A stretch of DNA of 64,000 nucleotides. Source: Sulfuriflexus mobilis (GTDB lineage Bacteria > Pseudomonadota > Gammaproteobacteria > AKS1). This document shows positions 15,202 to 31,506 of this stretch, one piece after another. The position numbers and the translations under genes were made by a program. Position 1 is the first letter of the stretch; each line of letters opens with the position of its first letter. The notes under the pieces are model-generated. The model saw only the letters and a list, made by a program, of their open reading frames with translations. It was not told the DNA's origin and ran no database searches. The DNA is taken from positions 496,001-560,000 of the forward strand of contig NZ_AP018725.1 in the NCBI RefSeq assembly GCF_003967195.1, written 5' to 3'.

Positions 15202-15816
15202 ATGGTTAAACTTAAAACCTATGTTTATATCGACGCATTACAGCCACAGTTAGCAGAATATATGGCTTCTGTGTCTCAGGGCTTTCCTCCCGTACCCGGG
15301 GATGCTTGTCTGTGGGTTGAGGTTTCACCAGGTATGGCCATTCACCGTGTTACAGATATTGCGTTAAAAGCATCCCAGGTAAAACTGACTCAACAAATTG
15401 TCGAGCGCGCATTTGGTTCAATGGTAATACATCATAGAGATCAGAGTGATGTGATTGAGTCAGGCAGAATATTGTTATCGAGTATAGATGCTGATGTAAA
15501 CGATAGAGAGCATTGTGATATTCAATGGCACGATATTATTCATGGGATGACATCAGATCACGCTGTTTTGATTAACCGCCAACATCGGGGCGGTTCAATG
15601 ATATTGCCTGGTGAGAGCATGTTTATTCTTGAGGCTCAGCCAGCCGGTTATATTGTCTATGCTGCTAATCAGGCAGAGAAAGCAGCAAATATTACATTAG
15701 TTGATGTGCGTGCAGTGGGTGCCTACGGTCGCTTAACAATATCAGGGAAAGAAGCGGATGTTGAAGAAGCTGCTGTCGCGGCAATCAGAGCGTTACAAAA
15801 TCCATCAAGGACATAG
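15202..15816 (+). CDS. csoS1D: tandem-BMC carboxysome shell protein, CsoS1D-like
   Basis: A protein of 204 residues built of two BMC-fold halves. The C-terminal half holds the clearest motif ([38 protein letters not shown]). The N-terminal half ([20 protein letters not shown]) matches the opening I associate with CsoS1D, the trimeric double-layer shell protein with a gated pore. It would sit in shell facets and pass larger metabolites such as RuBP or 3-PGA. Here it lies upstream of cbbL and is paired with a NUDIX hydrolase 3 bases downstream. It is AT-rich like the rest of the island. Confidence 0.8.
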
Positions 15817-15819
15817 TTA

Positions 15820-16383
15820 ATGCATCGACAGGAACTTTTAAATTTATTAAAAGAGCACCATACACGTTTTATGGACGAAGCAGGATATGTACAGCGTGCA
15901 ATAGGGTATATCGAGGAGCATGAAGATTGTTTCTATCGTGAACTATGGCCTATACATGTTACTGGTTCAGCATGGGTAATCAGTCCAGATTGTAATAAAA
16001 TTTTAATGATGCATCATAAGAAACATGATCAATGGTTTCAGCCTGGTGGTCATGCAGATGGTGATGCAGACATTGTACGTGTCGCACTACGTGAAACATC
16101 AGAAGAAACGGGTATTGATATATCACAAGTTAAATTATTAGATTTAAATGTATTTGATGTTGATATACATAGTATTCCAGCTATGGGACATGAACCACAA
16201 CATTATCATATTGATATCAGGTTCTTAGTGGAAATTGATGATAGCGTACCCGTGCCTGGTAATGATGAATCGCATCAGGTGCTATGGGTTAGTTTGTATG
16301 AGGTCACTCGTTATAATAATAACCGTTCAACTTATCGTATGCTGGAGAAGACTCGCCAACTACGCAACACGTTAGCTACTTGA
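15820..16383 (+). CDS. NUDIX hydrolase
   Basis: A protein of 187 residues. The NUDIX box is GGHADGD...ALRETSEETGI; the REx2EEx motif for Mg2+ is intact, but the first glutamate position of the box is Ala. The start lies 3 bases after csoS1D, so they form one operon. The substrate is unknown. A housekeeping role on nucleotides or on damaged sugar phosphates near the carboxysome is only a guess. Confidence 0.85.
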   Translation: MHRQELLNLLKEHHTRFMDEAGYVQRAIGYIEEHEDCFYRELWPIHVTGSAWVISPDCNKILMMHHKKHDQWFQPGGHADGDADIVRVALRETSEETGIDISQVKLLDLNVFDVDIHSIPAMGHEPQHYHIDIRFLVEIDDSVPVPGNDESHQVLWVSLYEVTRYNNNRSTYRMLEKTRQLRNTLAT

Positions 16384-16408: not shown

Positions 16409-16903
16409 TTAAGCAGTGTATCTCGAATTTTCTTGTGCAGTATCTCCGCACTCATTCTGACTACGATACTTCATTAGATTTTCACGAATGCGTGGATATT
16501 TATTAGCAAGCATACTTGCTGCAAACAATGCTGCATTGACAGCACCTCCTGGTCCGGTGGTAAGCATCGAAACCTGGTTATCTATGTAGTTACGTGGGTC
16601 AAAATCATAAGATTTTTTATGTTTAGCAGAATTGGTTGTCATGGGGACACCAAGTACGGGTATCTCTGTTTTAGAGGCAAGAATTCCAGGTAAATATGCA
16701 GCACCAGCAGAGCCGGCGATGATAATTTCTAGACCGCGATCTATGGCATTGCCGGCATATTCATGCAATCGATTAATATTTTTATTTGCTGTGATGATTC
16801 GAGCTTCATAGGCAATACCCAAGTGAGCAAGTAATTTCGCCGTATGTTGCATGGTTGTCCATTGGAGCCTCGAGCCCATAATAATACCGACTTGCGTATG
16901 CAT
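16409..16903 (-). CDS. divergent PurE-like protein (N5-CAIR mutase paralogue), catalytic His lost
   Basis: A protein of 164 residues aligned throughout with PurE: start VGIIMGSRLQWTTMQHTAKL, then IIIAGSAGAAYLPGILASK, PVLGVPMTT and GGAVNAALFAASMLA. True PurE has SAHRTP and GAGGAAHLPG; here these read TANKNI and GSAGAAYLPG, so the catalytic histidine and the second histidine are both replaced. It is therefore probably not a working N5-CAIR mutase. It is convergent with the csoS1D-NUDIX pair and shares the intergenic region with cbbL. GAGGGTGG precedes the ATG. Confidence 0.75.
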   Translation of the reverse strand: MHTQVGIIMGSRLQWTTMQHTAKLLAHLGIAYEARIITANKNINRLHEYAGNAIDRGLEIIIAGSAGAAYLPGILASKTEIPVLGVPMTTNSAKHKKSYDFDPRNYIDNQVSMLTTGPGGAVNAALFAASMLANKYPRIRENLMKYRSQNECGDTAQENSRYTA

Positions 16904-17463
16904 AAGACCACCCTCTTGTAAGAACGTGTAAATTTATGGTTATAACAAGCAAATAAAAAATGACTCACATGCTTGTTAACAAATCAAGATTCACAAGGTA
17001 ACGATATTGCTTCAGTAAGACTAATCAAATAATTATCATCAAAATATAGATAACTATCTATCAAACAAGATTGATATTTCAATTAGTCAGGTGGAGTCTA
17101 TTACATTAACTTGGATGCTGATTAATGCATGATTAACTCTGAATAGGCATATAAATAATTTCACCAATGTTTTTACACTTAGTTCGAAGGCCTATGTGAT
17201 GGACAAGAATTCAATTTAAAATCATTGCGCAAGTAGTCGAATTGCATGCCTGGCATGATAGTTATTTTTTATTCTTTTTATTTAATGCCACTATTTAACC
17301 CTTAATTGCATTGATTGAATTAACCGCAGCATACATAGATTAGAAACTATGGGTTATCAATAAAATATCGATTGGAACTACTTATAGACTTACGACTATG
17401 ATTTACACATCTTTCATAAGTAAGCACTGAATCAACAAACAGCCAACTAAACAGGAGTTGAAT
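16904..17463. promoter_or_regulatory. divergent control region between the purE-like gene and cbbL
   Basis: 560 AT-rich bases without a gene. Visible elements are the perfect palindrome ATAGATA-AC-TATCTAT (17046-17061), the inverted repeat CATAG-8-CTATG (17334-17351), and TTATCAATAAAATATCGATT then GG (17354-17375), which recurs with one change at 26901-26922. A possible -10 TATGAT lies at 17397-17402. These are candidates for CbbR control. AGGAG at 17453-17457 serves cbbL. Confidence 0.5.
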
Positions 17464-18879
17464 ATGTCATCAAAAGCCTATGAAGCGGGAGTAAAAGAAT
17501 ACCGCGAAAAATACTGGACGCCGGATTATGTTCCACTCGATACAGATCTTTTGGCTTGTTTCAAGGTCACAGGGCAGCCGGGTGTGCCAAATGAAGAAGT
17601 TGCCGCCGCGGTAGCCGCAGAAAGTTCGACCGGCACATGGAGTACGGTATGGTCAGAACTATTAACTGATCTGGAATTTTACAAAGGTCGCGCTTATCGC
17701 ATTGAAGATGTGCCGGGAGACTCAGAGTCTTTCTACGCATTTGTTGCCTACCCACTTGATTTGTTTGAAGAAGGTTCAATCGTGAATGTATTGACTTCTT
17801 TGGTTGGCAACGTCTTTGGATTTAAAGCACTTAAACATCTGCGTCTTGAAGATATTCGCTTTCCAATTGCCTATATAAAAACTTGCGGTGGCCCGCCAGC
17901 AGGTATTCAGGTCGAACGTGATCGCTTGAACAAATACGGTCGCCCAATGTTGGGTGCGACAATCAAGCCTAAATTAGGTCTGTCAGCTAAAAACTACGGT
18001 CGTGCAGTATATGAATGTTTGCGCGGCGGTCTTGACCTGACTAAAGATGATGAAAATGTTAACTCTCAGCCATTCATGCGCTGGCGTGACCGTTTCGAGT
18101 TCGTTGCAGAAGCGATTGATAAAGCCCAACGCGAAACAGGTGAGCGTAAAGGTCACTACCTTAATGTTACTGCAGCAACGCCGGAAGATATGTATGAACG
18201 CGCTGAATTCGCCAAAGAAGTTGGTTGCCCAATCATCATGCATGACTTCTTGACGGGTGGTTTCACTGCTAACACAGGTCTGGCTAACTGGTGTCGTAAA
18301 AACGGCATGCTATTACACATTCACCGTGCGATGCATGCAGTAATCGATCGTCATCCTAAGCACGGTATTCACTTCCGCGTATTAGCTAAGTGTTTACGTC
18401 TGTCAGGTGGTGATCACCTGCACACAGGTACTGTTGTTGGTAAGTTAGAAGGTGATCGAAACTCTACATTAGGTTTCGTTGATCAATTACGTGAGTCATT
18501 TGTTCCTGAAGATCGTTCACGTGGTGTTTTCTTCGACCAGGACTGGGGCTCATTGCCAGGTGTATTCGCAGTTGCTTCTGGTGGTATCCATGTATGGCAT
18601 ATGCCTGCTTTGGTAACTATCTTCGGAGATGATTCTGTGCTGCAGTTTGGTGGTGGTACACAGGGACATCCATGGGGTAACGCAGCAGGTGCTGCAGCAA
18701 ACCGTGTTGCACTTGAAGCATGTGTTAAAGCCCGTAATGAAGGGAGAAATCTTGAAGCAGAGTCTAAAGACATTATGACTAATGCAGCTCGTACCAGTCC
18801 TGAACTTGCAATGGCGATGGAAACCTGGAAAGAGATCAAGTTTGAGTTTGAAACAGTGGATAAATTGGACGTAGGTTAA
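17464..18879 (+). CDS. cbbL: RuBisCO large subunit, form IA
   Basis: A protein of 471 residues, the catalytic subunit that carboxylates RuBP in the Calvin cycle, here packed in carboxysomes. The activating lysine is K194 in [17 protein letters not shown]; the phosphate and Mg2+ regions ([39 protein letters not shown]) are intact. The start [13 protein letters not shown] with AGGAG 6 bases upstream is preferred over the TTG at 17458. The close link to csoS2 and the carboxysome genes marks the carboxysomal form IA (Cso) type. Confidence 0.98.
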
Positions 18880-18942
18880 TAGCACTACGTGATTCACTAC
18901 ACCACTAGTTAACGAGATTTAAGATTACGAGGAACTATAACC

Positions 18943-19287
18943 ATGGCAATAAATTACAACGAAGCTGATTATCAAACCACACCAACGCTGGAAACTTTTG
19001 GTTTCCTACCTAAGTTGACACCGGAAGAAATTCAGATGCAGGTAGCATACATCATAGCTAATGGCTGGACGCCCGCAATTGAGCATGAGCATCCAAGTCA
19101 GGCATCCGATCATTACTGGACGATGTGGAAACTTCCTTTATTTGGTGAAACCGATATTGGTCGTGTATTGGATGAACTGGACACTTGTGGCCGTACTTAT
19201 CCTGATCACCATATCCGTTTAATCGGTTATGACAGTTACACCCAGAGTCAGGGTAGTGCCTTTGTTGTGCGTGAAGGCCGCGCATAA
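18943..19287 (+). CDS. cbbS: RuBisCO small subunit, form IA
   Basis: A protein of 114 residues with typical small-subunit motifs ([47 protein letters not shown]). GAGGAAC lies upstream of the ATG. It forms the L8S8 hexadecamer with CbbL and contributes to the surface bound by the N-terminal repeats of CsoS2. It lies 63 bases after cbbL. Confidence 0.97.
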
Positions 19288-19339
19288 CAAAGAAAGGCAA
19301 ATATCTGTAAACATAAATGACGATGCAATGGGGTTAACA

Positions 19340-21640
19340 ATGGCACAAACAGCAACGACAAATACTGCACGTGAAGCTTCATTGGCTCGACGTCGTGCTA
19401 TGTCAACAACAGGCAAAGCGGCAATCACCCGTACGGCAGAAGGTGCAACAGCAGGATCGAATAGGGAACGTTCGATTTCCGCACCATCTCCTAGTCCGGT
19501 TAGCACAGGTTCGACTGCGCGAGCGGCTTCAAGGGAGCGCCGTAGGTTGATGTCGACAAATGGCAAAACCGGTATTAAGAGTCCGGATAGAATTCGTGAC
19601 ATAGCGGCTAAAGAAAATAAATCTGCCGCTGATGTTCTTGATCAGGTTGGTGCCGCTCAGTCTCAGGTAGCTGAGAATAAAACCGGATGTGGCTGTGGTT
19701 GTAATGGCTCAAAAGCAATGTGTGATTCGCAATCAAGTGCAGCATCAAATGCAGTGACGCCACAGATGCGTGCGAAGGCGAGTATTCGTAAAAACATCAC
19801 ACGTGGTACAGCACGTGCGGCATCATTGGCACGTCGTGAAGCGATGTCATCGCGTGGCAAAGCTGGAATCACTTCTGGGACTTCTGCAGCACAGTCAACA
19901 CGTGCGGCAAACCCGAATTTGAGTAGTCGAGATCTGGCAAAAATATTGCGTGAACAACGCAGTCGTCAGGGTAAATCTGGCGAGAAAAAGTCGCAGCCCT
20001 GTGGACGCGTTCGCCCCAACGCTAAAACACAAAATGCTGCAGCAGAAGATGCTCCATGGAAAGTTGGTATGAGCGAAACTGCACAGGGTCAAACATTAAC
20101 GGGAACGATGGTTGGTCGCAGTCAGCGCGTAACAGGTGATGAACCGAGTACCTGCCGTAGTATTACGGGTACAGAATACATGGGTGCCGATGTTTTTCGT
20201 GAATTTTGTCAAAGCGATGTAACACCATCGACTGCACGCAAAGTTAACGTAACAACAACCTCTCATGGTAACGCTGTTAGTGGTGACCGTGTAGGTCGCG
20301 GAAGGAACGTAACCGGCAATGAAGCGGGTACCTGTAAGAATGTTACCGGTGATGAATACACTAGTGCAGAACAGTCACAAGGTTACTGTGGTGAGTTTGC
20401 GAAAAAATCACCTCGTAAATTTTCTATGGCTGAAACAATGAAAGGTGAAGCCGTTACCGGTAATAACGTTGGGCGTTCAGAAAACGTAACCGGTGATGAA
20501 TCTGGTATGAGTCGCTCTTTAACCGGAACGCAATACACAAAACCAGAAGAGATTGGTAATGTACCAGCTAAAGTGGGTGCGAGTACAACTTTACGCGGTG
20601 GTAGTGTCACTGGCAGCATGATTGGTCGACGTGAACGTATGACAGGTAATGAACCAGGTAGCTGTCGAAACGTGACGGGTGATGATTATGTTGGGCAAGA
20701 ACAGTACAACGGTTTTTGCAATGCAAAGGCTGACGCTCCAACAGACCGGAAGGTAGGTGTTGCTATGACAGGTAAAGGTTTATCGGTAACTGGCACAATG
20801 ACAGGTCGTGCTAATCAAGTGACGGGTAATGAGCCGGGTAGCTGTAAAGCGGTAACAGGCACACCATACGGTGGTGCGGAGCAGTCGGAAAATTTTTGCC
20901 GGGCTGAAGACGTAGCGATGGCGAGTGCACGCAACAGACAATTGAGAAGTACACCCGCCATGCCATTAACAGGGATTCAACCTGGTGTTGGTGGCGTGAT
21001 GACAGGTGCAGATAAAGGTGCATGTGAACAAGTATCGGGTACACCTTACGTTGGTGCTGATCAGTTTGCTAATGCATGTCCATCAACACCGGCAACGACA
21101 GCAAGCCCTGATTTTCCACAAGCAATTGGTGGTGATTCGGTAGGGCAACAATTCAGCATAAGCACGCCATCAGGTGGTGCCGCAGCTGCAACGGGTTCAA
21201 CCGGTATTACTGGAAAGCAAAATGCGCAAAGCCATATAACTGGTCCATTCGGTATGGCAACGGGCAAAGTAACGGGTACTGAAGATGCACGTTTTGGTAA
21301 AGGAAATGTTAATGCTGCTGAAATGCGACCTGAGCCTATTGCTCAAGTTGATGGCAGAGAAAAAACGCGTATATCAGGTGAAGGCCAGGATACGGGTTTA
21401 AATATTACCGGTGATGACTGGGGCCGAGGTAAGAATGTTACTGGCACTGAAGGTATGTCATCAACAAAACGTAATCCGACTATACGGGCGAGCAACTCAA
21501 TGGCGGCCATGCAAGAAATGGCGGCAATTGCACAAAAGCGCAATGAAGAAATTGCGGTACCTAATAGCAAGGTTACCGGTGGTAGTGGTAATACGGATAA
21601 AGGATCTTTAATTACTTATTCTGGAGGTGCACGCGGATAA
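19340..21640 (+). CDS. csoS2: carboxysome scaffold protein CsoS2
   Basis: A disordered, basic scaffold of 766 residues that joins RuBisCO to the shell. The N-terminal region has four RuBisCO-binding repeats (REASLARRRAMSTTGKA; RAASRERRRLMSTNGK; RAASLARREAMSSRGK; RDLAKILREQRSRQGK). The middle region has six VTG repeats of the form (V/L)TG..VGR...(V/M)TGNEPG.C..VTG, most ending in F/Y-C. The C-terminal shell-binding region carries ITG/VTG motifs and a Lys/Gly-rich end. The ATG at 19340 with GGGG 8 bases upstream is chosen over the frame opening at 19229, which overlaps cbbS. Two TTTTT stretches (20713 and 20893) could support the -1 frameshift known to make a short form in other species. Confidence 0.96.
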   Translation: MAQTATTNTAREASLARRRAMSTTGKAAITRTAEGATAGSNRERSISAPSPSPVSTGSTARAASRERRRLMSTNGKTGIKSPDRIRDIAAKENKSAADVLDQVGAAQSQVAENKTGCGCGCNGSKAMCDSQSSAASNAVTPQMRAKASIRKNITRGTARAASLARREAMSSRGKAGITSGTSAAQSTRAANPNLSSRDLAKILREQRSRQGKSGEKKSQPCGRVRPNAKTQNAAAEDAPWKVGMSETAQGQTLTGTMVGRSQRVTGDEPSTCRSITGTEYMGADVFREFCQSDVTPSTARKVNVTTTSHGNAVSGDRVGRGRNVTGNEAGTCKNVTGDEYTSAEQSQGYCGEFAKKSPRKFSMAETMKGEAVTGNNVGRSENVTGDESGMSRSLTGTQYTKPEEIGNVPAKVGASTTLRGGSVTGSMIGRRERMTGNEPGSCRNVTGDDYVGQEQYNGFCNAKADAPTDRKVGVAMTGKGLSVTGTMTGRANQVTGNEPGSCKAVTGTPYGGAEQSENFCRAEDVAMASARNRQLRSTPAMPLTGIQPGVGGVMTGADKGACEQVSGTPYVGADQFANACPSTPATTASPDFPQAIGGDSVGQQFSISTPSGGAAAATGSTGITGKQNAQSHITGPFGMATGKVTGTEDARFGKGNVNAAEMRPEPIAQVDGREKTRISGEGQDTGLNITGDDWGRGKNVTGTEGMSSTKRNPTIRASNSMAAMQEMAAIAQKRNEEIAVPNSKVTGGSGNTDKGSLITYSGGARG

Positions 21641-21680
21641 TCGAGGAGTAGTCCGAGATTAATCACGACACACGATCATT

Positions 21681-23231
21681 ATGTTGAATAGTCGCAGCAA
21701 GCAAAAAGCTTCACGCAGCTTGAACCGGAGATTGACCCCATTGGGTCGCCCTGGTGACAGAAGTACGAAGACTGCACATAAAGTAGAGTCCAGTCACTCT
21801 GCAAGTGTGTCAGTGAATGCTGCATACATGAAAATTTCGCATGGGCTAACCAATGCACCGGAAAATATGCAGTTATATGCATATGAAAGTAGTGTAAGAG
21901 AATCGTTTGATAACATTGTTCCAACGTTGAAACAAATTTCAGCATTGCAACATGAAGCAAATTTTGAGCAACAAGCGCAACAATTAGCGCGCACGCAACT
22001 TGGTTTTGAGTTGCCTGACTTGCTATTAAATAATGCCTGGGTGGACCAATTGGATATGCGCAGTTTGTTCGCATGGAGTGTGTTTGAAACTTACCATCGT
22101 TTTTGCGATGAGGTTTTCACACATGATCCACTTGGCCAGAACGGTAGTGATGCCAGCTTCCAGAGATTTATCCAGGAATGTGGTTTTCACATGGTTGATG
22201 TTTCACCTTGTGCAGATGGCCGTTTGGCGCATGTTATTCGCTATGTATTGCGCATGCCATACAAAGAAGTGCGACGCCGGTCTTATGCTGGGGCAATGTT
22301 TGATATTGAAGACAGTCTTGAAAAATGGGTTAAGACAGAATTGCTGCGTTTTCGTGAAGGTAAACCTAATACCCCAGATTCCGCGACACGTTATTTGAAG
22401 ACAGTGGTTTATCACCACAGTTCTGTTGACCCAAATCATCAAGGTTGTGCAGCACATGGTTCTGATACATCAAAAGCAGCACAAGGTGGTTTAGAACGTT
22501 TAATGGCTTTCCAGCAAGCGGTACAAAACACACATTGCTGCGGCGCTTCTATCGATTGCTTGTTAATCGGCATGGACACAGATACAGATAGTATTCGCAT
22601 TCATATGCCTGATGCGAATGGCAATATTGATTTAGAAAACCATGTTGACAGTTTAGAGGTGTTTGATGCGACCGCCAGCATGAATATGAATGATGCAGAG
22701 CAGTGGATAACAGATCATATTCAACAGAAAGGTGGTAACGCACTAACGTCGGGTATGGCACGTTTTATGTCATATCTAATGAAAAACAATATGTCACAAG
22801 TGGAATACGTGCGTAGTTACTACGGTGGTTGCTATAGCGACATAGGCCACGCTGAACGGTTTATTGGTGCGGGCATTGGTTTTGAAGAAATACAGTTACG
22901 TAACCTGACGTTTTTTTCTTACCTTAATACGGTTGAGGAAGCGGCTACAGATCTAGATGTCGGTATTAGCATATTTACCGGCTTAAATGTTTCGCAAGGA
23001 CTGCCTGTGCCTATAGTTGTTCGTTACGACTATCACGGTAATGTACCTGGTGCACGTGAACGCGCCGAAGAGCATTGCCAGCGCGTTGCAGATGCATTGC
23101 ATAACCGTTACAGCGAACTTACGGATCGAGGTATGTTGCACACATTACAAGTCGTACGTGACATTAATGGTGCCGGACAAATTGAGATACTTGATTGTTC
23201 AGTTAAAACAAAAGTTGCAGGTGGTCACTAA
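21681..23231 (+). CDS. csoSCA: carboxysomal carbonic anhydrase CsoSCA (CsoS3)
   Basis: A protein of 516 residues, an epsilon/beta-type carbonic anhydrase that turns HCO3- into CO2 inside the carboxysome. C177-A-D179-G-R181 gives the zinc cysteine and the Asp-Arg pair; by spacing, H245 and C256 are the other zinc ligands, 10 residues apart as in the studied enzyme. The N-terminal 50 residues are basic and disordered, the part that binds RuBisCO in H. neapolitanus. No close Shine-Dalgarno is seen; GAGGAG lies about 33 bases upstream. The stop overlaps the start of csoS4A (TAATG). Confidence 0.95.
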   Translation: MLNSRSKQKASRSLNRRLTPLGRPGDRSTKTAHKVESSHSASVSVNAAYMKISHGLTNAPENMQLYAYESSVRESFDNIVPTLKQISALQHEANFEQQAQQLARTQLGFELPDLLLNNAWVDQLDMRSLFAWSVFETYHRFCDEVFTHDPLGQNGSDASFQRFIQECGFHMVDVSPCADGRLAHVIRYVLRMPYKEVRRRSYAGAMFDIEDSLEKWVKTELLRFREGKPNTPDSATRYLKTVVYHHSSVDPNHQGCAAHGSDTSKAAQGGLERLMAFQQAVQNTHCCGASIDCLLIGMDTDTDSIRIHMPDANGNIDLENHVDSLEVFDATASMNMNDAEQWITDHIQQKGGNALTSGMARFMSYLMKNNMSQVEYVRSYYGGCYSDIGHAERFIGAGIGFEEIQLRNLTFFSYLNTVEEAATDLDVGISIFTGLNVSQGLPVPIVVRYDYHGNVPGARERAEEHCQRVADALHNRYSELTDRGMLHTLQVVRDINGAGQIEILDCSVKTKVAGGH

Positions 23232-23485
23232 TGAAAATCTGTCAAGTAATGAAACCATTAGTTTCAACTAATCGCATACCAGGTATGGAACATAAACACC
23301 TGCAAGTGGTTAAGGATGGTAGTTCAATTGCAGTTGCTGTTGATTCGGTTGGTTGTATACCGGGTGATTGGGTGATTTGTGTAGGTAGTTCAGCGGCACG
23401 TGAAGCCGCTGGTAGTAAAGACTATCCGAGTGATTTTACTATTGTCGGCATTATTGATCACTGGGATCCGGATGCTTCGGTATAG
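23231..23485 (+). CDS. csoS4A: carboxysome vertex protein CsoS4A (BMC-P)
   Basis: A protein of 84 residues of the CcmL/EutN pentamer family (MKICQVMKPLVSTNRIPGME; VDSVGCIPGDWVICVGSSAA; VGIIDHWD). Pentamers close the 12 vertices of the shell. It is translationally coupled to csoSCA. Confidence 0.95.
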   Translation: MKICQVMKPLVSTNRIPGMEHKHLQVVKDGSSIAVAVDSVGCIPGDWVICVGSSAAREAAGSKDYPSDFTIVGIIDHWDPDASV

Positions 23486-23494
23486 GCGATAACG

Positions 23495-23761
23495 ATGGAA
23501 ATAATGCAGGTTGAAAAACCATTGGTATGTACTCGTCGTGTCGATGGATTAAGAGATATTAGTTTGCGTGTGTTGAGAGACCGCGCAGGTAAACAAGTGG
23601 TAGCGGTAGACCCTGTGGGTGCCAGAGAAGGTAACTGGGTGTTCACGGCAAGTGGGTCTGCGGCGAGATATGCGGCATGTGACTTTCGGATTTTAACTGA
23701 CCTGACTGTCGCAGGCATTATAGATTTTTGGGATGCTGATTTCGATCAGCAAACCAAATAA
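23495..23761 (+). CDS. csoS4B: carboxysome vertex protein CsoS4B (BMC-P)
   Basis: A protein of 88 residues paralogous to CsoS4A (MEIMQVEKPLVCTRRVDGLR; VDPVGAREGNWVFTASGSAA; VAGIIDFWDADF), starting 9 bases after it. It forms minor vertex pentamers. Confidence 0.95.
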   Translation: MEIMQVEKPLVCTRRVDGLRDISLRVLRDRAGKQVVAVDPVGAREGNWVFTASGSAARYAACDFRILTDLTVAGIIDFWDADFDQQTK

Positions 23762-23859
23762 CAGCTACAACAGTTCTGGTTTTAATGCCTGGCAGATGTG
23801 GCTTAATTTAAATTTGAAACAATAAGGTCTACGACTTTAAAAATCAGGAGTGTATTAAG

Positions 23860-24159
23860 ATGGCTAATGACAACTATGGTATTGCCTTAGGTATGATTGA
23901 AACGCGCGGACTCGTTCCTGCCATTGAAGCAGCTGATGCGATGACTAAGGCGGCAGAAGTACGCATGATAGGGCGTGAATTTGTTGGCGGCGGCTATGTA
24001 ACAGTATTAGTTCGTGGCGAAACGGGTGCGGTTAACGCTGCAGTACGTGCTGGCGCTGATGCTTGTGAACGTGTTGGGGACGGCCTGGTGGCGGCACACA
24101 TTATTGCTCGTCCACACAATGAAGTTGAAGCTGTTTTACCCACAGGTAAAGAAGCTTAA
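23860..24159 (+). CDS. csoS1: carboxysome hexameric shell protein CsoS1 (copy 1)
   Basis: A BMC-H protein of 99 residues (MANDNYGIALGMIETRGLVP; REFVGGGYVTVLVRGETGAV). Hexamers tile the shell facets and pass HCO3- through the central pore. It is the first of four tandem copies; residues 1-88 are almost the same in all, and the C-terminal tail here ends EAVLPTGKEA. AGGAG lies 12 bases upstream. A 98-base gap separates it from csoS4B. Confidence 0.96.
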   Translation: MANDNYGIALGMIETRGLVPAIEAADAMTKAAEVRMIGREFVGGGYVTVLVRGETGAVNAAVRAGADACERVGDGLVAAHIIARPHNEVEAVLPTGKEA

Positions 24160-24201
24160 GCTAGTTTTATTGTTTCATTAACTTTATAGGAGAAACAGGC
24201 C

Positions 24202-24495
24202 ATGGCCAATGATAATTACGGCATCGCTCTAGGTATGATTGAAACGCGTGGACTCGTTCCTGCCATCGAAGCAGCTGATGCGATGACTAAAGCGGCAGAA
24301 GTACGCATGATAGGGCGTGAATTTGTTGGCGGCGGCTATGTAACAGTATTGGTTCGTGGCGAAACGGGCGCGGTTAACGCTGCAGTACGTGCTGGCGCAG
24401 ATGCTTGTGAACGTGTTGGTGACGGCCTGGTGGCGGCACACATTATAGCTCGTCCACACAAAGAGGTTGAACCTGTTTTACCCACAGGTAAATAA
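24202..24495 (+). CDS. csoS1: carboxysome hexameric shell protein CsoS1 (copy 2)
   Basis: A protein of 97 residues, nearly identical to copy 1 except for the tail (KEVEPVLPTGK). AGGAG lies upstream. Coding DNA is also nearly identical, which points to recent duplication or gene conversion. Confidence 0.96.
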   Translation: MANDNYGIALGMIETRGLVPAIEAADAMTKAAEVRMIGREFVGGGYVTVLVRGETGAVNAAVRAGADACERVGDGLVAAHIIARPHKEVEPVLPTGK

Positions 24496-24544
24496 GCTTT
24501 AGTTAGTGTAATTTACCCTTTTAAACTTATAGGAGATACAGATC

Positions 24545-24862
24545 ATGGCCAATGATAATTACGGCATTGCTCTAGGTATGATTGAAACGCGCGGATTAGT
24601 TCCTGCCATTGAAGCAGCTGATGCGATGACTAAAGCAGCAGAAGTACGCATGATAGGGCGTGAATTTGTTGGTGGCGGTTATGTAACAGTATTGGTTCGT
24701 GGCGAAACGGGTGCGGTTAACGCTGCAGTACGCGCTGGCGCTGATGCATGTGAACGTGTTGGTGACGGCCTGGTTGCGGCGCACATTATTGCTCGTCCAC
24801 ACAAAGAAGTTGAACCTGTTCTACCAACTGGCAGCACTGCTGATACAGCTGATGCAGCCTAA
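24545..24862 (+). CDS. csoS1: carboxysome hexameric shell protein CsoS1 (copy 3)
   Basis: A protein of 105 residues with the common body of the series and an extended tail, VLPTGSTADTADAA. AGGAG lies upstream. The longer tail may resemble the extended copy (CsoS1B) of H. neapolitanus. Confidence 0.95.
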   Translation: MANDNYGIALGMIETRGLVPAIEAADAMTKAAEVRMIGREFVGGGYVTVLVRGETGAVNAAVRAGADACERVGDGLVAAHIIARPHKEVEPVLPTGSTADTADAA

Positions 24863-24907
24863 AGGCACAGGCATTAGTGATAATTGAATTAACAGGAGAA
24901 TAAAACC

Positions 24908-25219
24908 ATGGCTAACGAAAACTATGGCATTGCCCTGGGCATGATTGAAACGCGCGGACTAGTTCCTGCCATTGAAGCAGCTGATGCGATGACTAAAGCG
25001 GCAGAAGTAAGTCTTGTAGGACGTGAATTTGTTGGCGGCGGCTACGTTACAGTGCTCGTTCGTGGCGAAACGGGTGCGGTTAACGCTGCAGTACGTGCTG
25101 GCGCTGATGCATGTGAACGCGTTGGTGATGGTCTGGTTGCAGCGCACATTATTGCACGTCCACACAATGAAGTTGAAGGTGTGATTGGCGAAACAGATAA
25201 TGGTGCATCAGCTAGATAA
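24908..25219 (+). CDS. csoS1: carboxysome hexameric shell protein CsoS1 (copy 4)
   Basis: A protein of 103 residues and the most diverged copy: MANENYG start, AEVSLVGREF instead of AEVRMIGREF, and tail EGVIGETDNGASAR. AGGAG lies upstream. It probably forms mixed facets with the other copies. Confidence 0.95.
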   Translation: MANENYGIALGMIETRGLVPAIEAADAMTKAAEVSLVGREFVGGGYVTVLVRGETGAVNAAVRAGADACERVGDGLVAAHIIARPHNEVEGVIGETDNGASAR

Positions 25220-25252
25220 TGACTGGTTTTTGACTAAAAAGATTACGTAACC

Positions 25253-25702
25253 ATGTTTCATATTAACACTGATGAACGCGTATTAGGCTACCTCGGTCGG
25301 GCCCTGAGCCTCGAGCTCTCTGCAGTACAGCTTTACAGTACGCAGTCAATGCTTGTTGCTTCTTGGGGTTTGACCGATGTTGCCGATAAACTTCGCGCAG
25401 AATCTCGTGAAGAAATGGGCCATGCTGAACGTATCATTAGTCGAATGCTTGCTCTTGGTGTGGCACCTAATGCTTCACAATTGCGTCCGGTTCGACTTGG
25501 ACGAAACCTGCAAGAGTTATTGCAATATGACTATGCATTTGAGAATGAACTTATAAGTTTATACGATGATGCAACGCGTCATTGTGTAAGTGTTGCTGAT
25601 TCTGATAACAGGCTGTTTTTTGAAGCGCTTCTTAATGAAGAGAAAGCACATGCAGCTGATTTAACGCAATGGATTCAGGAAGTAAAATCAACTGAAACAT
25701 AA
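25253..25702 (+). CDS. carboxysome-associated ferritin-like protein
   Basis: A four-helix protein of 149 residues of the bacterioferritin/ferritin-like family often found next to csoS1 genes. Di-iron ligands are present: LELSAVQLY, REEMGHAERI, ENELISLYDDA and NEEKAHAADL (Glu, ExxH, Glu, ExxH). Its role in carboxysome biology is not settled. It lies 33 bases after csoS1 copy 4 in the same operon. Confidence 0.85.
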   Translation: MFHINTDERVLGYLGRALSLELSAVQLYSTQSMLVASWGLTDVADKLRAESREEMGHAERIISRMLALGVAPNASQLRPVRLGRNLQELLQYDYAFENELISLYDDATRHCVSVADSDNRLFFEALLNEEKAHAADLTQWIQEVKSTET

Positions 25703-25741: not shown

Positions 25742-26002
25742 ATGAGCGATCAATGGCAAGAACGTAATAAACCTGCTCGTCTTGAACAGCGATACCTATT
25801 CCAGGATTACAGCACGCTGCGTGATTTTCTTGAACGTGCAGCCGGATTGTCAGAGCGTGAAAATTTATTTCCGGATATGGGCTTTGGTAAAGATTATGTC
25901 AATATCACCATTTATGCTGATGGAGATAATGAAAAACTAAGTGATAATCATCATCGTTTTGCACAAGAACTCGATAAGCTGTTTAACGTAAAAGAAAACT
26001 GA
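25742..26002 (+). CDS. alpha-carboxysome RuBisCO assembly factor acRAF (PCD-like)
   Basis: A protein of 86 residues with the pterin-4a-carbinolamine dehydratase fold (RYLFQDYSTLRDFLERAAGL; VNITIYADGDNEKLSDNHHRFAQELD). Members in cso operons lack dehydratase activity and act as RuBisCO chaperones (acRAF). Location between the ferritin-like gene and mcdA supports that. GGAGG lies 8 bases upstream. Confidence 0.85.
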   Translation: MSDQWQERNKPARLEQRYLFQDYSTLRDFLERAAGLSERENLFPDMGFGKDYVNITIYADGDNEKLSDNHHRFAQELDKLFNVKEN

Positions 26003-26014
26003 GGCTAGTGAACG

Positions 26015-26641
26015 ATGCCCATTATTGCCCTAGTAGGCAACAAGGGTGGCGCAGGCAAGACCACCTTATCGGTTAATCTTGCCTCAGCGCTAGCAAGACA
26101 AACCAGTATCGCTGTGGTTGATGCCGATCCTCAAGGTTCGGCCTTACAATGGCGAGCGTTTGCCGAAAACGACAATGCAATACCCATATATGAAGGTGAT
26201 GAACAGCTCGAGCAGCAGGCGAGAGATTTGTTACGCGAGTATACGTATGTGTTATTTGATTGCCCTCCTTCGGTACATGCGCCACAGATGAAATCAGTAT
26301 TGAGTTTCTGTGATCTGGCACTGATACCGGTGCAACCTTCACCCGTGGATCTGTGGGCCACGGTACATATTGAAGATGCTGTCAATCAGGCACTGAAAAC
26401 GAACACTACGTTGCGGGCCTTGTTGATCATTAATCAATTGGAAACACGAACGACCCTGTCACGATTGGCACGCGATGCCTTATCGGAGATAGGGTTACCC
26501 ATAGCCAAAACGGCATTGCGACGGCGCGCAATCTATCGAAGCAGTGCGCTAGAAGGCAAGAGTGTATTTGATATGGGGCGACGTGGCGCAGATGCTGCTG
26601 ACGAACTCGAGCAACTGATCCAGGAGGTACTGGCAGAATGA
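26015..26641 (+). CDS. mcdA: carboxysome-positioning ATPase McdA (ParA family)
   Basis: A ParA-type ATPase of 208 residues with deviant Walker A NKGGAGKTTLS (K10, K15), Walker A' region VVDADPQGSALQW and Walker B YVLFDCPPS. In cso operons this protein binds the nucleoid and distributes carboxysomes with McdB. The stop overlaps the mcdB start (ATGA). It lies 12 bases after acRAF. Confidence 0.88.
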   Translation: MPIIALVGNKGGAGKTTLSVNLASALARQTSIAVVDADPQGSALQWRAFAENDNAIPIYEGDEQLEQQARDLLREYTYVLFDCPPSVHAPQMKSVLSFCDLALIPVQPSPVDLWATVHIEDAVNQALKTNTTLRALLIINQLETRTTLSRLARDALSEIGLPIAKTALRRRAIYRSSALEGKSVFDMGRRGADAADELEQLIQEVLAE

Positions 26642-26868
26642 CAACTAATGACAAAACCAGACAAAAACTAGTGGATTCCATGCGTAAGACCAAGGTGTCT
26701 GCGACTAAAAAAACAAAGGTCGCAGTTTCCAAGGATACAAGCAATACGCCGGATGGAAATTCACAAACTAAAAATGCGAATAAAATAAAAAAGAAGATGG
26801 TGGTAAAAGCAAACAGTCATATGTTAGTTGACCCCTATCGATCTAGAGGGCGCATCTGGCCGGATTGA
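26638..26868 (+). CDS. mcdB: carboxysome-positioning adaptor McdB (alpha type)
   Basis: A basic, disordered protein of 76 residues rich in Lys, Thr and Ser, with an N-terminal KTRQKLVDSMRKTK segment and an ending GRIWPD; alpha-McdB proteins are short, charged and end with an invariant Trp motif like this. Coupling to mcdA supports the call. It would bind carboxysomes and stimulate McdA. Confidence 0.8.
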   Translation: MTTNDKTRQKLVDSMRKTKVSATKKTKVAVSKDTSNTPDGNSQTKNANKIKKKMVVKANSHMLVDPYRSRGRIWPD

Positions 26869-26992: not shown

Positions 26993-27190
26993 ATGGGTAT
27001 CATTGAGTTATTATTCTCGTTATACACGACCGATTTCACCGTTCCATCACAAATGGAAATAGACGCAGCCATGAAGCATGCTCAAGAATGTAAAGCAGCC
27101 AAAGAGCCGGATGATAGTTGCTTAAACAGTTACCAGAAATATCTTAAGACGAGAGATGAAATGGAATCAGGCTATGTCTACTATCAATGA
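26993..27190 (+). CDS. small protein of unknown function upstream of cbbR
   Basis: A protein of 65 residues (MGIIELLFSLYTTDFTVPSQ; ECKAAKEPDDSCLNSYQKYL). GGAG lies 10 bases upstream of the ATG. It has two cysteines, no clear membrane segment, and no family I recognise. Its end overlaps the start of cbbR, so it may be a coupled leader gene. Confidence 0.5.
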   Translation: MGIIELLFSLYTTDFTVPSQMEIDAAMKHAQECKAAKEPDDSCLNSYQKYLKTRDEMESGYVYYQ

Positions 27191-28238
27191 TAGCAGCTAT
27201 ACACCACCGGGAGCAATGCCGGATCATCTTATTCGTTATGCAACATTTCGCCAGTTTCAGGTGTTTGAAGCGATTTATCGCCTAGGTAGTTTTACCCGTG
27301 CGGCCGAAGAACTCTTTTTGACGCAACCGACGGTTTCAATGCAGATAAAAAAATTATCAGACGCAATAGGCTTGCCATTATTTGAGCATGTCGGTCGAAA
27401 TGTTGAACCAACAGAAGCCGGCAAGGAATTGTATGTTGCCTGTCGTAACATGTTTGAAACACTGTCGAACTTGGAAATGAAAATTTCTGATATGCAAGGC
27501 TTGAAACGTGGCCGTTTGCGTATGGGCGTTATTACCACAGCAAAATATCTGGCTCCTGAAATGTTGGGTGAGTTCAGCCAGATCTATCCAGGTATAGAGC
27601 TTTCCTTAAAGGTTACCAACCGTGAAAACATTATACGTCGCATACGTGCTAATGAAGATGATCTGTATATCATGGGTCAGGCACCAGAAGGTGATGTTGA
27701 GGTGGAAGCATTTTCCTTTGCGCCTAATCCACTTGTTGTGATGGCACCGCGTAATCATCCGCTGGTGGGTAAGAAAAATATTAGTTTGGAAGAAATCGCC
27801 AAGGAACCATTCATTATTCGCGAACCAGGATCAGGAATTCGTGATGCTATGTTTAAAGCGTTTGATGAAATAGGGACGCGTCCTAGAATACGGATGGAAC
27901 TGGGTAATAATGAAGCCATCAAACATGCTATTGCAGGTGGTCTGGGATTGTCTGTCTTATCATTTCATACATTGTCACTCGAAGGTGTTGATGGTCCCGT
28001 TGCCATTCTCGACGTAAAAGGATTTCCTATCTTACGTGACTGGTATATCGTTTATCCAAAAGGGAAAGAATTATCATTGGTTGCGCAAACATTTTTAGAC
28101 TTTGTTATCGGTTCTGAGCCAGCGATCCGAGAACGCATGCAAAAAATGTGGCCTAAATTAGAAAGCATTTTAAACGAAAAACAAAAGATCACGTCAAGCA
28201 AGAAAAATTCTAACAAGAAAAAGCTTAGCAAGAAATAA
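27174..28238 (+). CDS. cbbR: LysR-type regulator CbbR
   Basis: A protein of 354 residues. The winged helix has the CbbR hallmark ATFRQFQVFEAIYRLGSFTR and FLTQPTVSMQIKKLSDAIGL; the effector domain contains LRMGVITTAKYLAPEML and EPGSGIRDAM. It would activate cbb and cso promoters in response to Calvin-cycle metabolites. The ATG at 27174 is the likely start; ATG 27216 (MPDHLIRYATF, with GGGAG just upstream) is nearly as good. A Lys/Ser/Asn-rich tail (SSKKNSNKKKLSKK) is unusual. Confidence 0.9.
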   Translation: MSTINDSSYTPPGAMPDHLIRYATFRQFQVFEAIYRLGSFTRAAEELFLTQPTVSMQIKKLSDAIGLPLFEHVGRNVEPTEAGKELYVACRNMFETLSNLEMKISDMQGLKRGRLRMGVITTAKYLAPEMLGEFSQIYPGIELSLKVTNRENIIRRIRANEDDLYIMGQAPEGDVEVEAFSFAPNPLVVMAPRNHPLVGKKNISLEEIAKEPFIIREPGSGIRDAMFKAFDEIGTRPRIRMELGNNEAIKHAIAGGLGLSVLSFHTLSLEGVDGPVAILDVKGFPILRDWYIVYPKGKELSLVAQTFLDFVIGSEPAIRERMQKMWPKLESILNEKQKITSSKKNSNKKKLSKK

Positions 28239-28487
28239 ACAGCTAAAAAGTAAAAATTACAACCACTTCTATTTGGTGTCTATCTACAACTCCCATCAAT
28301 AATATCGATGAATAAATATCGTTTAATTTGATCTCTGTAAATATAGTTAAACCTCTTCTTATTGGTAGCTAGCTATAGTATCCATCATTAATATCAATGA
28401 GTAATTTATTTTACTCAGATGCATAATATTAAATCGATTTACTCTTGTTATTCTCCGAGTAATTTTATTTTGCAGAGACCGTAAGAT
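28239..28487 (+). promoter_or_regulatory. SulP upstream region with a 54-base imperfect direct repeat
   Basis: Two related copies, 28266-28319 and 28355-28409, share CTTCT-ATTGGT and CATCA-TAATATC-ATGA elements. The second half resembles the ATATCGAT-type motif upstream of cbbL and the mcdB-cbbR gap. Probable binding sites for CbbR or a related regulator. No gene is present. Confidence 0.45.
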
Positions 28488-30182
28488 ATGCAAGTGTTAA
28501 ATGAAATTAATTTAAGACATAAACGCGGGGATATTTTTGGCGGAGTGACAGCGGCCGTGATTGCTTTACCTATGGCGCTTGCTTTTGGTGTTGCATCAGG
28601 TGCTGGTGCTGAATCCGGTTTATATGGTGCAATTCTTGTCGGCTTATTCGCGGCCTTATTCGGTGGCTCACCCACATTGATCTCAGAGCCAACCGGTCCA
28701 ATGACGGTTGTCTTCACCGCCGTCATCGCAAAGCTTATTGCTTCAGACCCGGTAAATGGAATGGCAATGGCCTTTACTGTCGTAATAATGGCAGGCCTGT
28801 TTCAAATTTTGTTTGGTGTAATGAAATTAGGTAAATATGTAACCCTGATGCCTTATACCGTTGTATCCGGTTTTATGTCAGGCATTGGTATCATTCTTAT
28901 CATCTTACAGATTGGGCCTTTGCTTGGGCAACCTTCGCCAAGTGGTGGTGTCATTGCCGTAATAGAAAATTTACCAACACTGCTTTCTGGTATACAAGCT
29001 AACGAAACAATTTTAGCCATATTAACACTGGCGATTCTTTTTCTTATACCAAAGAGTCTTAAACAATATCTTCCTCCTCCATTAGTTGCGTTGGTTGTTT
29101 GTACATTGATATCAGTGGTCTTCCTAAGTTCGACAGATATACGACGCATTGGTGAAATACCTACAGGATTGCCTGATCTACAGCTGCCTGTGTTTAGCCC
29201 TGAACAGTGGCAAGTAATGTTAATAGATGCCATTGTATTAGGTATGCTGGGATGCATTGATGCCTTACTTACTTCAGTTATTGCCGACAGCATTACTCGC
29301 AAACGGCATAATTCAGATAAGGAGTTAGTCGGCCAGGGTATAGGTAATATCATGTCTGGATTATTTGGTGGTTTACCGGGTGCCGGTGCGACCATGGGGA
29401 CAGTTGTCAGTATTCAGGCTGGGGCACGAACTGCTTTATCAGGTCTTATAAGAGCAGGAATATTACTCATAGTGATCTTATGGGCGGCTGATTTAACTTC
29501 CGTAATACCCTTGGCGGTATTAGCCGGTATCGCGTTAAAAGTGGGCATTGATATTATTGACTGGAGCTTTCTTAAACGTGCGCATCTTATTTCTGGAAAA
29601 GGTGCATTGATTACATACGGTGTAATACTATTGACAGTTTTTGTTGATCTGATTGCAGCAGTAGGTATTGGATTATTTGTTGCCAATGTTATGACAATTA
29701 CAAAACTATCCGAGTTGCAGGAAAACGATGTTAAAGCGGTCACCGATCCTGATAATACAGATTTGGACTTATCATCACGCGAAAAAGAAATATTAAGAGA
29801 TGCTAAAGGTAAAATTCTGTTGTTGTATTTACGTGGAACAATGATTTTTGGTAGCTCGAGAGCGATTACCCGTAAAAATTCACAAATTGGTGGTTGCCAT
29901 ACGCTTGTTGTCGATATTACTGATGTTAAACATCTTGGTGTTTCGGCAGCTTTAGCTCTTGAAGAATCTATTCTTGAAATGATTAATGCCGGGCGTTCGG
30001 TTTATATCGTTACGACTAAAGAACAAGCTCTAGAACGACTTGGTAAGCTGGATGTTCTTAAATATATACCTGAAGAGAATATTATTATGGGCAGACAGGC
30101 TGCGCTGGAACGTATTAGTACAAAGCAGTTAGAGAGGTTACATACGAATTATGATGAAAATGTGTCTGTAGCCAGTGTCTGA
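28488..30182 (+). CDS. SulP-family anion transporter with STAS domain, probable bicarbonate importer
   Basis: A protein of 564 residues. The N-terminal two thirds hold the SulP membrane domain (DIFGGVTAAVIALPMALAFG; SEPTGPMTVVFTAV; GLPGAGATMGTVVSIQAGA). The C-terminal STAS domain starts near residue 435 (KILLLYLRGTMIFGSSRAI; VVDITDVKHLGVSAALALEE). BicA-type SulP proteins import HCO3- with Na+; placement behind cbbR and next to carboxysome genes makes HCO3- likely, though sulfate is possible in a sulfur oxidiser. Confidence 0.85.
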   Translation: MQVLNEINLRHKRGDIFGGVTAAVIALPMALAFGVASGAGAESGLYGAILVGLFAALFGGSPTLISEPTGPMTVVFTAVIAKLIASDPVNGMAMAFTVVIMAGLFQILFGVMKLGKYVTLMPYTVVSGFMSGIGIILIILQIGPLLGQPSPSGGVIAVIENLPTLLSGIQANETILAILTLAILFLIPKSLKQYLPPPLVALVVCTLISVVFLSSTDIRRIGEIPTGLPDLQLPVFSPEQWQVMLIDAIVLGMLGCIDALLTSVIADSITRKRHNSDKELVGQGIGNIMSGLFGGLPGAGATMGTVVSIQAGARTALSGLIRAGILLIVILWAADLTSVIPLAVLAGIALKVGIDIIDWSFLKRAHLISGKGALITYGVILLTVFVDLIAAVGIGLFVANVMTITKLSELQENDVKAVTDPDNTDLDLSSREKEILRDAKGKILLLYLRGTMIFGSSRAITRKNSQIGGCHTLVVDITDVKHLGVSAALALEESILEMINAGRSVYIVTTKEQALERLGKLDVLKYIPEENIIMGRQAALERISTKQLERLHTNYDENVSVASV

Positions 30183-30228
30183 TTAAGTAAAGCACTCAAA
30201 ATAGTAAATAAGGAAAGGGGAATATTTT

Positions 30229-30528
30229 ATGTTAATGCCCAATCGGCTTTATCCTCATTTGTCTTATGAAATTATAACTGATGTTGCACAGGTTATTGAT
30301 AATCATCTTAGAAATGATTGGGTTATCAGGATCGAATATACAGAAGAAGTTGAATATTTAAATACAAGTTGGCATCAATGGGGTGAAGCGTTCTTTAATA
30401 TTACTGACATTTCTGCTGTGATCGATTGCATTCGTTCTTGTCATATGAATAACCAACTTTGCGCGATACGTTTGCATGCAGAGAAATTTCACCCCAGAAG
30501 CATTTTCTATTTTTGCGTTTGTCAATGA
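30229..30528 (+). CDS. stand-alone RuBisCO small-subunit-like protein
   Basis: A protein of 99 residues that resembles a divergent CbbS over most of its length. The NDWVIRIEYTEEVEYLNTSW segment followed by HQWGEAFF parallels the small-subunit core (W...IEYT...N..W..WG.P.F), and D-ISAVIDCIRSC...CAIRLHAEKF matches the next helix and strand (V...L..CR......IR). The true cbbS lies 11 kb upstream and is much closer to known form IA small subunits. Small-subunit-like domains are known in CcmM and in some activases as RuBisCO linkers. AAGGAAAGGGG lies upstream. It is probably cotranscribed with the SulP gene. Confidence 0.65.
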   Translation: MLMPNRLYPHLSYEIITDVAQVIDNHLRNDWVIRIEYTEEVEYLNTSWHQWGEAFFNITDISAVIDCIRSCHMNNQLCAIRLHAEKFHPRSIFYFCVCQ

Positions 30529-30639
30529 TAATGAAATACGAAGGGATTCTAAGGTAAAAAATAATAGGTTTTTTTAAAATTTAAAAGCTCTTGCGGTTAC
30601 TACTTACTGATAGTAAAGCTGATAAGATCCACACAATCT

Positions 30640-31506
30640 TTATTGTGCAATACCCTGGCGGAGTTTGTCTTTGTATTGTTGGTATCGATCCAGCATGTCA
30701 CGCCAGACCGGCCCCGGTTTGCCATTACCAACAGCCTGACCATCGAGATGCGTCACCGGCAGGATCTCCTTGGTGGAACTGGTCACCCAAATCTCGTCGG
30801 CCTCGCGCAGCATCTGCATGCTGATATCGGCCTCCTCGCAATCCAGGCCGTTATCGGCGGCGATCTCGAGTATCAGGTCACGGGTGATCCCGGGTAACAG
30901 GCATTCGTCTTTGCGCGGTGTGATGATGCGGCCGTTGTGAACAATAAAGACGTTACTCGCCGCGCCCTCGGTGACCTGATCATCGCGGTAGAGGATGGCC
31001 TCGGCGGCCCCGGCCTCGCGTGCGACCTGGCGCATCAGGGTATTAGGTAGTAGGGCGATCGACTTGATGTGGCAGTAACGCCAGCGGATGTCATCGTGGC
31101 TGATGGCTGCGATGCCGTTTTCCAGTTGCTCATCCGGCACAGGTGACATCGGTGTCGCCATGACGAATACGGTTTGTTTGACCTCATCGGGAAACACGTG
31201 ATCGCGTTTTGCGGCACCGCGAGTGACCTGTAAATAGATCGACAAATCGCCGTTGTTCTCGCTGTTGCGCTTGACGATCTCCTCCAGCACCTGGCCCCAT
31301 TGCAGGCGGTCGAGTGGATTGGCCAGGCGGATGCCGGCCAGGCTGTTATCGAGGCGTTGCAGGTGCTGCTCGAGGCGGAGCAGGCGTCCGCCGTAGGCCG
31401 GGATCACTTCATAGACGCCATCAGCAAAGACAAAACCACGGTCCAGGACCGAGACCCGTGCCTCGTCGGCAGGCAGGTACTCGCCGTTTAAATAGACAAT
31501 AGCCAT
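30640..31506 (-). CDS. D-amino-acid (D-alanine) aminotransferase, fold IV PLP enzyme
   Basis: A protein of 288 residues (YLNGEYLPADEARVSVLDRG FVFADGVYEV in class IV manner). The PLP lysine lies in CHIKSIALLPN and the phosphate-binding region in TEGAASNVFIV. It would make D-glutamate or D-alanine for peptidoglycan. It lies 3 bases after dacA in a minus-strand cell-wall cluster. Branched-chain aminotransferase is a less likely alternative. Confidence 0.87.
   Translation of the reverse strand: MAIVYLNGEYLPADEARVSVLDRGFVFADGVYEVIPAYGGRLLRLEQHLQRLDNSLAGIRLANPLDRLQWGQVLEEIVKRNSENNGDLSIYLQVTRGAAKRDHVFPDEVKQTVFVMATPMSPVPDEQLENGIAAISHDDIRWRYCHIKSIALLPNTLMRQVAREAGAAEAILYRDDQVTEGAASNVFIVHNGRIITPRKDECLLPGITRDLILEIAADNGLDCEEADISMQMLREADEIWVTSSTKEILPVTHLDGQAVGNGKPGPVWRDMLDRYQQYKDKLRQGIAQ

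Follow-up and report, generated by a model that had tools for sequence, protein, structure and literature searches.

What is a protein that looks like the small subunit of RuBisCO doing directly behind a bicarbonate transporter gene, in a carboxysome region with a cbbS of its own? The gene (30229–30528, + strand) lies in the window, by which we mean the whole stretch of 64,000 nucleotides of Sulfuriflexus mobilis DNA that was analysed, and encodes 99 aa. We call its product SSUO, a label coined here for an orphan RbcS-fold family; the assignment draws on a PF00101 match, an AF2 model and PDB matches.

A sequence-only reading of the window had pointed to a small-subunit pattern in this product, and the profile search bore this out. 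Residues 17–84 match the Pfam family PF00101 (RuBisCO_small) with 46.2 bits (E 4.6e-12), above the curated cut-off of 27, and the tested orthologues score 31–47 bits against the same cut-off. PF00101 matches three loci on the single 3.11-Mb contig of the genome. Besides SSUO these are the cbbS of the carboxysome cluster and, at 353 kb, a non-carboxysomal cbbS of form IA. NCBIfam has no family for SSUO, the match to SiaC (E 0.018) being far below that model's cut-off. Among sequences with solved structures, the nearest come from red-type or reconstructed ancestral small subunits (8bdb, 1.1e-7; 7qsy, 1.1e-6); the alpha-carboxysomal 1svd is far weaker (E 0.025), and plant chains reach E about 0.8 or worse. 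Thus, of the earlier description of a plant- or red-type core, the red-type half stood and the plant half found no support.

The fold was predicted from an alignment of six orthologues from which true small subunits had been left out. The resulting AF2 model (pLDDT 80.8, pTM 0.74) has the order alpha-beta-beta-alpha-beta-beta, with helices at 13–26 and 62–74 and strands at 32–38, 49–56, 79–86 and 91–98. All 32 Foldseek matches in the PDB with E at or below 0.001 were RuBisCO small-subunit chains, including 8uhi_I, whose entry is titled for allophycocyanin and whose chain is labelled RuBisCO small subunit. In VIA-align the model reached Z 12.4 with RbcS, against 10.3 with 6has, an activase SSUL; the best PDB matches were all RbcS (Z 10–12.4). 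The orthologue-only model thus has the RbcS fold, as the earlier reading had anticipated in proposing a comparison with RbcS and SSUL. A PII fold, as in an SbtB-like partner, was rejected on the same model.

Gene neighbourhood, carriers and tails

The SSUO frame begins 46 bp past the stop codon of a gene for a SulP transporter with a STAS domain (28488–30182, +; 564 aa; PF00916 330 bits, STAS 36 bits). This transporter is of the BicA type, scoring 860 bits with the NCBIfam model BicarbTportBicA, just under its cut-off of 880; the bicarbonate-type SulP gene that had been read from sequence directly in front of SSUO is therefore confirmed. A purine stretch, AAGGAAAGGGG (30210–30220, +), lies 8 nt before the SSUO ATG and resembles a ribosome-binding site; a similar stretch is present at this position in the orthologous loci L052 and L053. 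No terminator-like sites were found in 28200–30700, and a promoter scan gave no more matches than shuffled sequence. The two genes are likely co-transcribed. Their G+C content (bicA 41%, SSUO 35%) is low against the window (52%) and the cso cluster (46%), and a recent gain of the pair is possible.

In front of bicA lie a CbbR-type LysR regulator gene (27156–28238, +; best NCBIfam match CbbR, 244 bits, below the model cut-off), found at the same place in L052, L053 and L073; a gene for a small basic protein of 76 aa (26638–26868, +), for which Pfam and NCBIfam gave no family above cut-off and which its position suggests is an McdB-like ParA partner; and a ParA/McdA-type partition ATPase gene (26015–26641, +; NCBIfam ParA_partition 198 bits, cut-off 180). 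A pterin-dehydratase-like protein of carboxysome loci, which we take to be acRAF-like, is encoded at 25742–26002 (+; PF01329 26.7 bits, cut-off 26). The carboxysome cluster itself spans 17458–25702 (+) and, with names by sequence likeness unless a profile is given, comprises cbbL (17458–18879), cbbS (18943–19287; PF00101 124.5 bits), csoS2 (19229–21640; PF12288 at G000:C1:515811-517079, window 19811–21079), csoSCA (21681–23231), csoS4A/B (23231–23761), four csoS1 copies (23860–25219) and a ferritin-like gene (25253–25702; PF00210). A BMC-domain, CsoS1D-like shell protein is encoded farther upstream (15202–15816, +; PF00936 39.2 bits in two stretches); the gene for its orthologue adjoins SSUO in L054 and lies three genes off in L066.

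A profile built from the window protein and its first relative was run over an even class sample of 369 genomes, where it returned four SSUO proteins at 72–189 bits, against 48 bits and less for ordinary small subunits. A single-sequence scan of the genome contigs with SSUO gave no matches, whereas a four-sequence SSUO alignment found five loci in the same contigs. The carriers found are 11 genomes, all gammaproteobacterial: G000 (the window), G039 (L054; MAG WH4.bin33), G127 (L055; Thiohalophilus thiocyanatoxydans), G404, G395, G396 (L066), G244, G409 (L056; Candidatus Tenderia), G792 (L052), G793 (L053) and G813 (L073). In a phylum-wide sample of 398 genomes, SSUO occurred only in the window's own genome, and three genomes of the same genus lack both SSUO and CsoS2. 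The viral contigs scanned held no SSUO, and nothing therefore points to a phage as its source. The family is a rare one of patchy occurrence.

All 11 carriers possess CsoS2, the mark of alpha-carboxysomes. Within the class sample, SSUO was found in 4 of 71 CsoS2-positive and 0 of 298 CsoS2-negative genomes (Fisher p 0.0013, a value that overstates independence owing to shared ancestry); in the family of G792 the corresponding counts were 3/11 and 0/43. Since most carboxysome genomes lack the gene, SSUO is an optional part of the system.

When we surveyed gene order among the carriers, as the sequence-only reading had proposed, the pairing with the SulP gene recurred: SSUO lies directly behind a BicA-type gene in five genomes, with gaps of 46 bp in the window, 44 in L052, 45 in L053, 60 in L066 and 173 in L073. 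The window order is parA, small basic protein, cbbR, bicA, SSUO; L052 and L053, whose SSUO is 68–71% identical to that of the window, have the same end of this series, and L073 keeps it throughout with an SSUO only 35–39% identical to the window group. In L066 the series is csoS1D, NUDIX, bicA, SSUO, cbbL. Identity between the groups is only 28–42% despite the shared position behind bicA. The paired transporters are 70–94% identical to one another, whereas the SulP proteins of Thiohalophilus cso loci are only about 30% identical to them; among 16 genomes scored, a search that did not extend to G813, only G000, G396, G792 and G793 reached 844–870 bits with the BicA model. The parA-to-SSUO unit of G813 (L073, 6453–11595), with its genes for carboxysome positioning and uptake, is separated from csoS2 by about 440 kb, which shows that the module need not adjoin the shell genes.

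Other carriers have other arrangements. In G039 the gene sits between csoS1D and cbbR, followed by SbtA-like and small PII-like genes (named by sequence likeness); in Thiohalophilus the gene faces cbbR in convergent orientation where the cso cluster ends; and in G244, G409 and G395 no cso or transporter genes surround it. All members read are single-domain proteins, alone or with a tail. Those of L054, L056 and L049 continue through a linker into a hydrophobic C-terminal stretch (Kyte-Doolittle 1.9–2.0 over 19 aa) that by its hydropathy looks like a tail anchor or transmembrane helix; in L056 AF2 left the tail unmodelled (pLDDT under 50). These tails could not be seen from the window sequence, and the three genomes have no BicA of the 844–870-bit grade. 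The remaining members have polar or proline-rich tails. The window protein has almost none, being 18–23 residues shorter than those of L052 and L053 (99 versus 117–122 aa), and neither it nor the Thiohalophilus member has a membrane helix.

Relationship to small subunits and SSULs

Ten near-universal residues serve to judge CbbS function: S9, L11, P12, Y25, E36, W48, L53, P54, F56 and E67 (PMC9164163). Only E36, W48 and F56 are kept across the SSUO family; S9, P12, Y25, L53, P54 and E67 are missing from every member or almost every one, and L11 from 7 of 10, whereas true small subunits in the same alignment retain nearly all ten, with L53 varying in red types. By this measure SSUO is not a functional CbbS. 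It also lacks the RbcS N-terminal loop, its profile matches starting at Pfam position 7–15; this loop, absent from SSULs too, provides much of the RbcS–RbcL contact (PMC7059596). With the loop and seven of the ten residues missing, the sequence speaks against the earlier suggestion that SSUO might replace a small subunit. What it has in common with CbbS/RbcS (PF00101, best with red-type form IC/ID) is the profile, the fold, and W31, E36, W48, F56, C71 and R81. Red-type subunits carry an extended C-terminal hairpin, whereas SSUO ends after strand D, and its gene does not stand in cbbLS order.

Ten residues are identical in all ten aligned members, including the family-specific D30, A84, K86 and P89, which by reading also fit G813, the eleventh member. 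The profile alignment places SSUO 19–85 on 27–93 of the 1svd chain, and a one-residue extension puts K86 opposite D94 of CbbS, a position that holds D (or N) in SSULs and true small subunits. In CbbS, D94 begins the D94–S99 loop, which lies beside CsoSCA and CsoS2 peptides (PMC10614612). SSUO carries an AEK..P motif here, so the loop with which CbbS helps to bind CsoS2 and CsoSCA is charge-reversed in it, and this loop may be a binding site of SSUO itself.

We built a tree of 41 distinct domain sequences, including ten SSUO members. SSUO (UFBoot 99), SSUL (100), green-type (99) and red-type (92) sequences were each monophyletic, and SSUO fell within none of the other groups; given so short a domain, with SSULs only partly represented, the tree gives no branching order between the four. 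Nesting within red-type small subunits, which the IEYT and WG motifs had suggested, was rejected, as the red clade closes without SSUO. Descent from SSULs was likewise rejected, given the separate clades and the family profile, which gave SSUL chains E 0.18–0.25 compared with 4e-13 for true small subunits. The earlier view of SSUO as a stand-alone protein of a CO2-concentrating gene cluster, distinct from the local CbbS, is supported.

Selection has acted on the gene, with dN/dS of 0.21–0.24 for the window against L052/L053 and 0.16 for L052 against L053. Eleven orthologues, the values of 0.16–0.24 among the three closest and the kept gene order show that SSUO is not a chance frame. The family is old, monophyletic and selected, with its fold core kept, and SSUO is no spare CbbS and no isolated case. 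It is very probably a non-canonical protein of RbcS fold, under selection, that belongs to the alpha-carboxysome CO2-concentrating system. In the open literature (subscription journals and most preprints lay outside the search) we found no earlier description of an SSUO-like protein or family.

Candidate roles

The closest functional parallel is the SSUL/SSLD of CcmM and of activase (ALC), which shares the RbcS fold with SSUO (Z 10.3 to 6has), likewise lacks the N-terminal loop and, like SSUO, is a non-catalytic accessory protein of a carboxysome system. However, SSULs are found in cyanobacteria with beta-carboxysomes and form IB RuBisCO, either as repeats or as C-terminal fusion partners, whereas SSUO stands alone or with a membrane tail in alpha-carboxysome bacteria; no member read is repeated or fused to gamma-carbonic-anhydrase or AAA+ domains. 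SSUO would thus act most like an SSUL, yet by kinship and architecture it is not one. The linker or tether role that the sequence-only reading had envisaged is the best-fitting idea.

We tentatively propose, short of an even chance, that SSUO is a repurposed small subunit serving as an adaptor by which RuBisCO, or intermediates of its assembly, would be connected with the membrane and with bicarbonate uptake. Recognition of RuBisCO (L8S8 or an assembly intermediate) by its RbcS-like domain is suggested by the fold and by the precedent of the CcmM and activase SSULs; an action at the cytoplasmic face of the inner membrane is suggested by the transporter pairing and the membrane tails. The hold on the membrane would be the C-terminal transmembrane helix in three genomes and the co-encoded BicA in the window's group. 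RuBisCO or the carboxysome assembly site would thereby be placed near the point of bicarbonate entry, or, alternatively, transporter output would be tied to the presence of RuBisCO. A more specific version is doubtful. In it, alpha-carboxysome bacteria would have recruited an RbcS domain separately from the cyanobacterial SSULs and made it a RuBisCO receptor, bound to the membrane or the transporter, by which the uptake of bicarbonate is physically coupled to RuBisCO or carboxysome assembly. Several points stand against the adaptor. With the shell between the membrane and packaged RuBisCO, a tether could reach only free RuBisCO, precursors or the assembly site, or the non-carboxysomal enzyme. 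The window protein has neither transmembrane helix nor tail, so for it a membrane location would depend on BicA, and the gene is not beside cso or transporter genes in G395, G244 and G409; what a gene's neighbours say of its role is, moreover, indirect. In the Chlamydomonas pyrenoid, BST4/RBMP1 shares the idea of RuBisCO linked to a membrane bicarbonate channel, although by short linear motifs in the channel instead of an RbcS domain, and its tether role was later rejected (PMC10680556).

Two rivals are serious. SSUO could bind and gate BicA, in the way that the small PII-like SbtB acts on SbtA, sensing a metabolite or the state of RuBisCO with no need to bind the enzyme. The short, kept spacing directly behind bicA in five genomes would suit such a regulator, as would the position of the L054 gene near cbbR, sbtA and a small PII-like gene; SbtB is likewise a small protein encoded beside a bicarbonate transporter, SbtA, though that transporter is of another family than the SulP/BicA of SSUO and SbtB has the PII and not the RbcS fold. 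Because three orthologues carry a membrane tail of their own in genomes without a BicA-grade transporter, 3 of 11 genes are unlinked to any transporter, and SSUO has no sign of a ligand site, we consider this rather unlikely. The other rival, which we also regard as unlikely, is a soluble RuBisCO condenser, assembly factor or cargo adaptor that works like a single SSUL in the cytosol or carboxysome and has no membrane role. The RbcS fold without N-terminal loop, the adjacency to cbbL in L066 and the lack of a membrane helix in the window and Thiohalophilus members are all compatible with it; however, CcmM-like linkers hold several SSULs, one domain could bridge only if dimeric, and the transporter pairing and membrane tails would be left unexplained.

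A spare subunit and a relic are both unlikely. That SSUO takes the place of CbbS in some L8 complexes under certain conditions is improbable: the complete RbcS fold, the retained E36, W48 and F56 and the place beside cbbL in L066 allow it, but the other seven near-universal residues, by which function is judged (PMC9164163), are lost (L11 in 7 of 10 members), the genome already has two intact cbbS genes, and membrane-tailed members would not fit an L8S8 core. Least probable of all is a functionless, decaying relic of a second cbbS, for which one could cite the missing tail of the window copy, its low G+C (35% versus 52%) and the absence of the gene from many relatives; dN/dS of about 0.2, the ten invariant residues (D30, A84, K86 and P89 among them) and a gene order kept between families speak against it.

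Accounts of CO2-concentrating mechanisms keep transporters and carboxysomes apart, as parts joined only by diffusing bicarbonate. If the adaptor proposal is true, SSUO, encoded with the transporter or anchored in the membrane, would join uptake and carboxysome physically or through regulation, and small subunits would have become accessory modules at least twice, once each in the beta- and alpha-carboxysome lineages. SSUO would also offer a small, testable part for rebuilding CO2-concentrating mechanisms in other hosts.

Other genes of the carboxysome regions

The four tandem csoS1 copies of the window (23860–25219) are 85–94% identical in DNA and 92–100% in protein over the first 93 codons. 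At 15202–16383 (+), a NUDIX hydrolase gene comes next after the CsoS1D-like BMC gene; L066 and L050 have this pair too, and both genes lie, farther apart, near the cso locus of G039 (L016). By sequence likeness, G039 (L016/L051, L017) also combines its cso locus with SbtA-like and DAB-like uptake genes, and its red-type RuBisCO genes form a locus of their own that includes a CbbX-like AAA+ gene. The window also encodes, in the interval from the csoS1D/NUDIX pair to cbbL, a PurE-like AIR carboxylase (16409–16903, −; PF00731 116.7 bits) that, by eye, has TANKNI where the active-site motif is usually SAHRTP.
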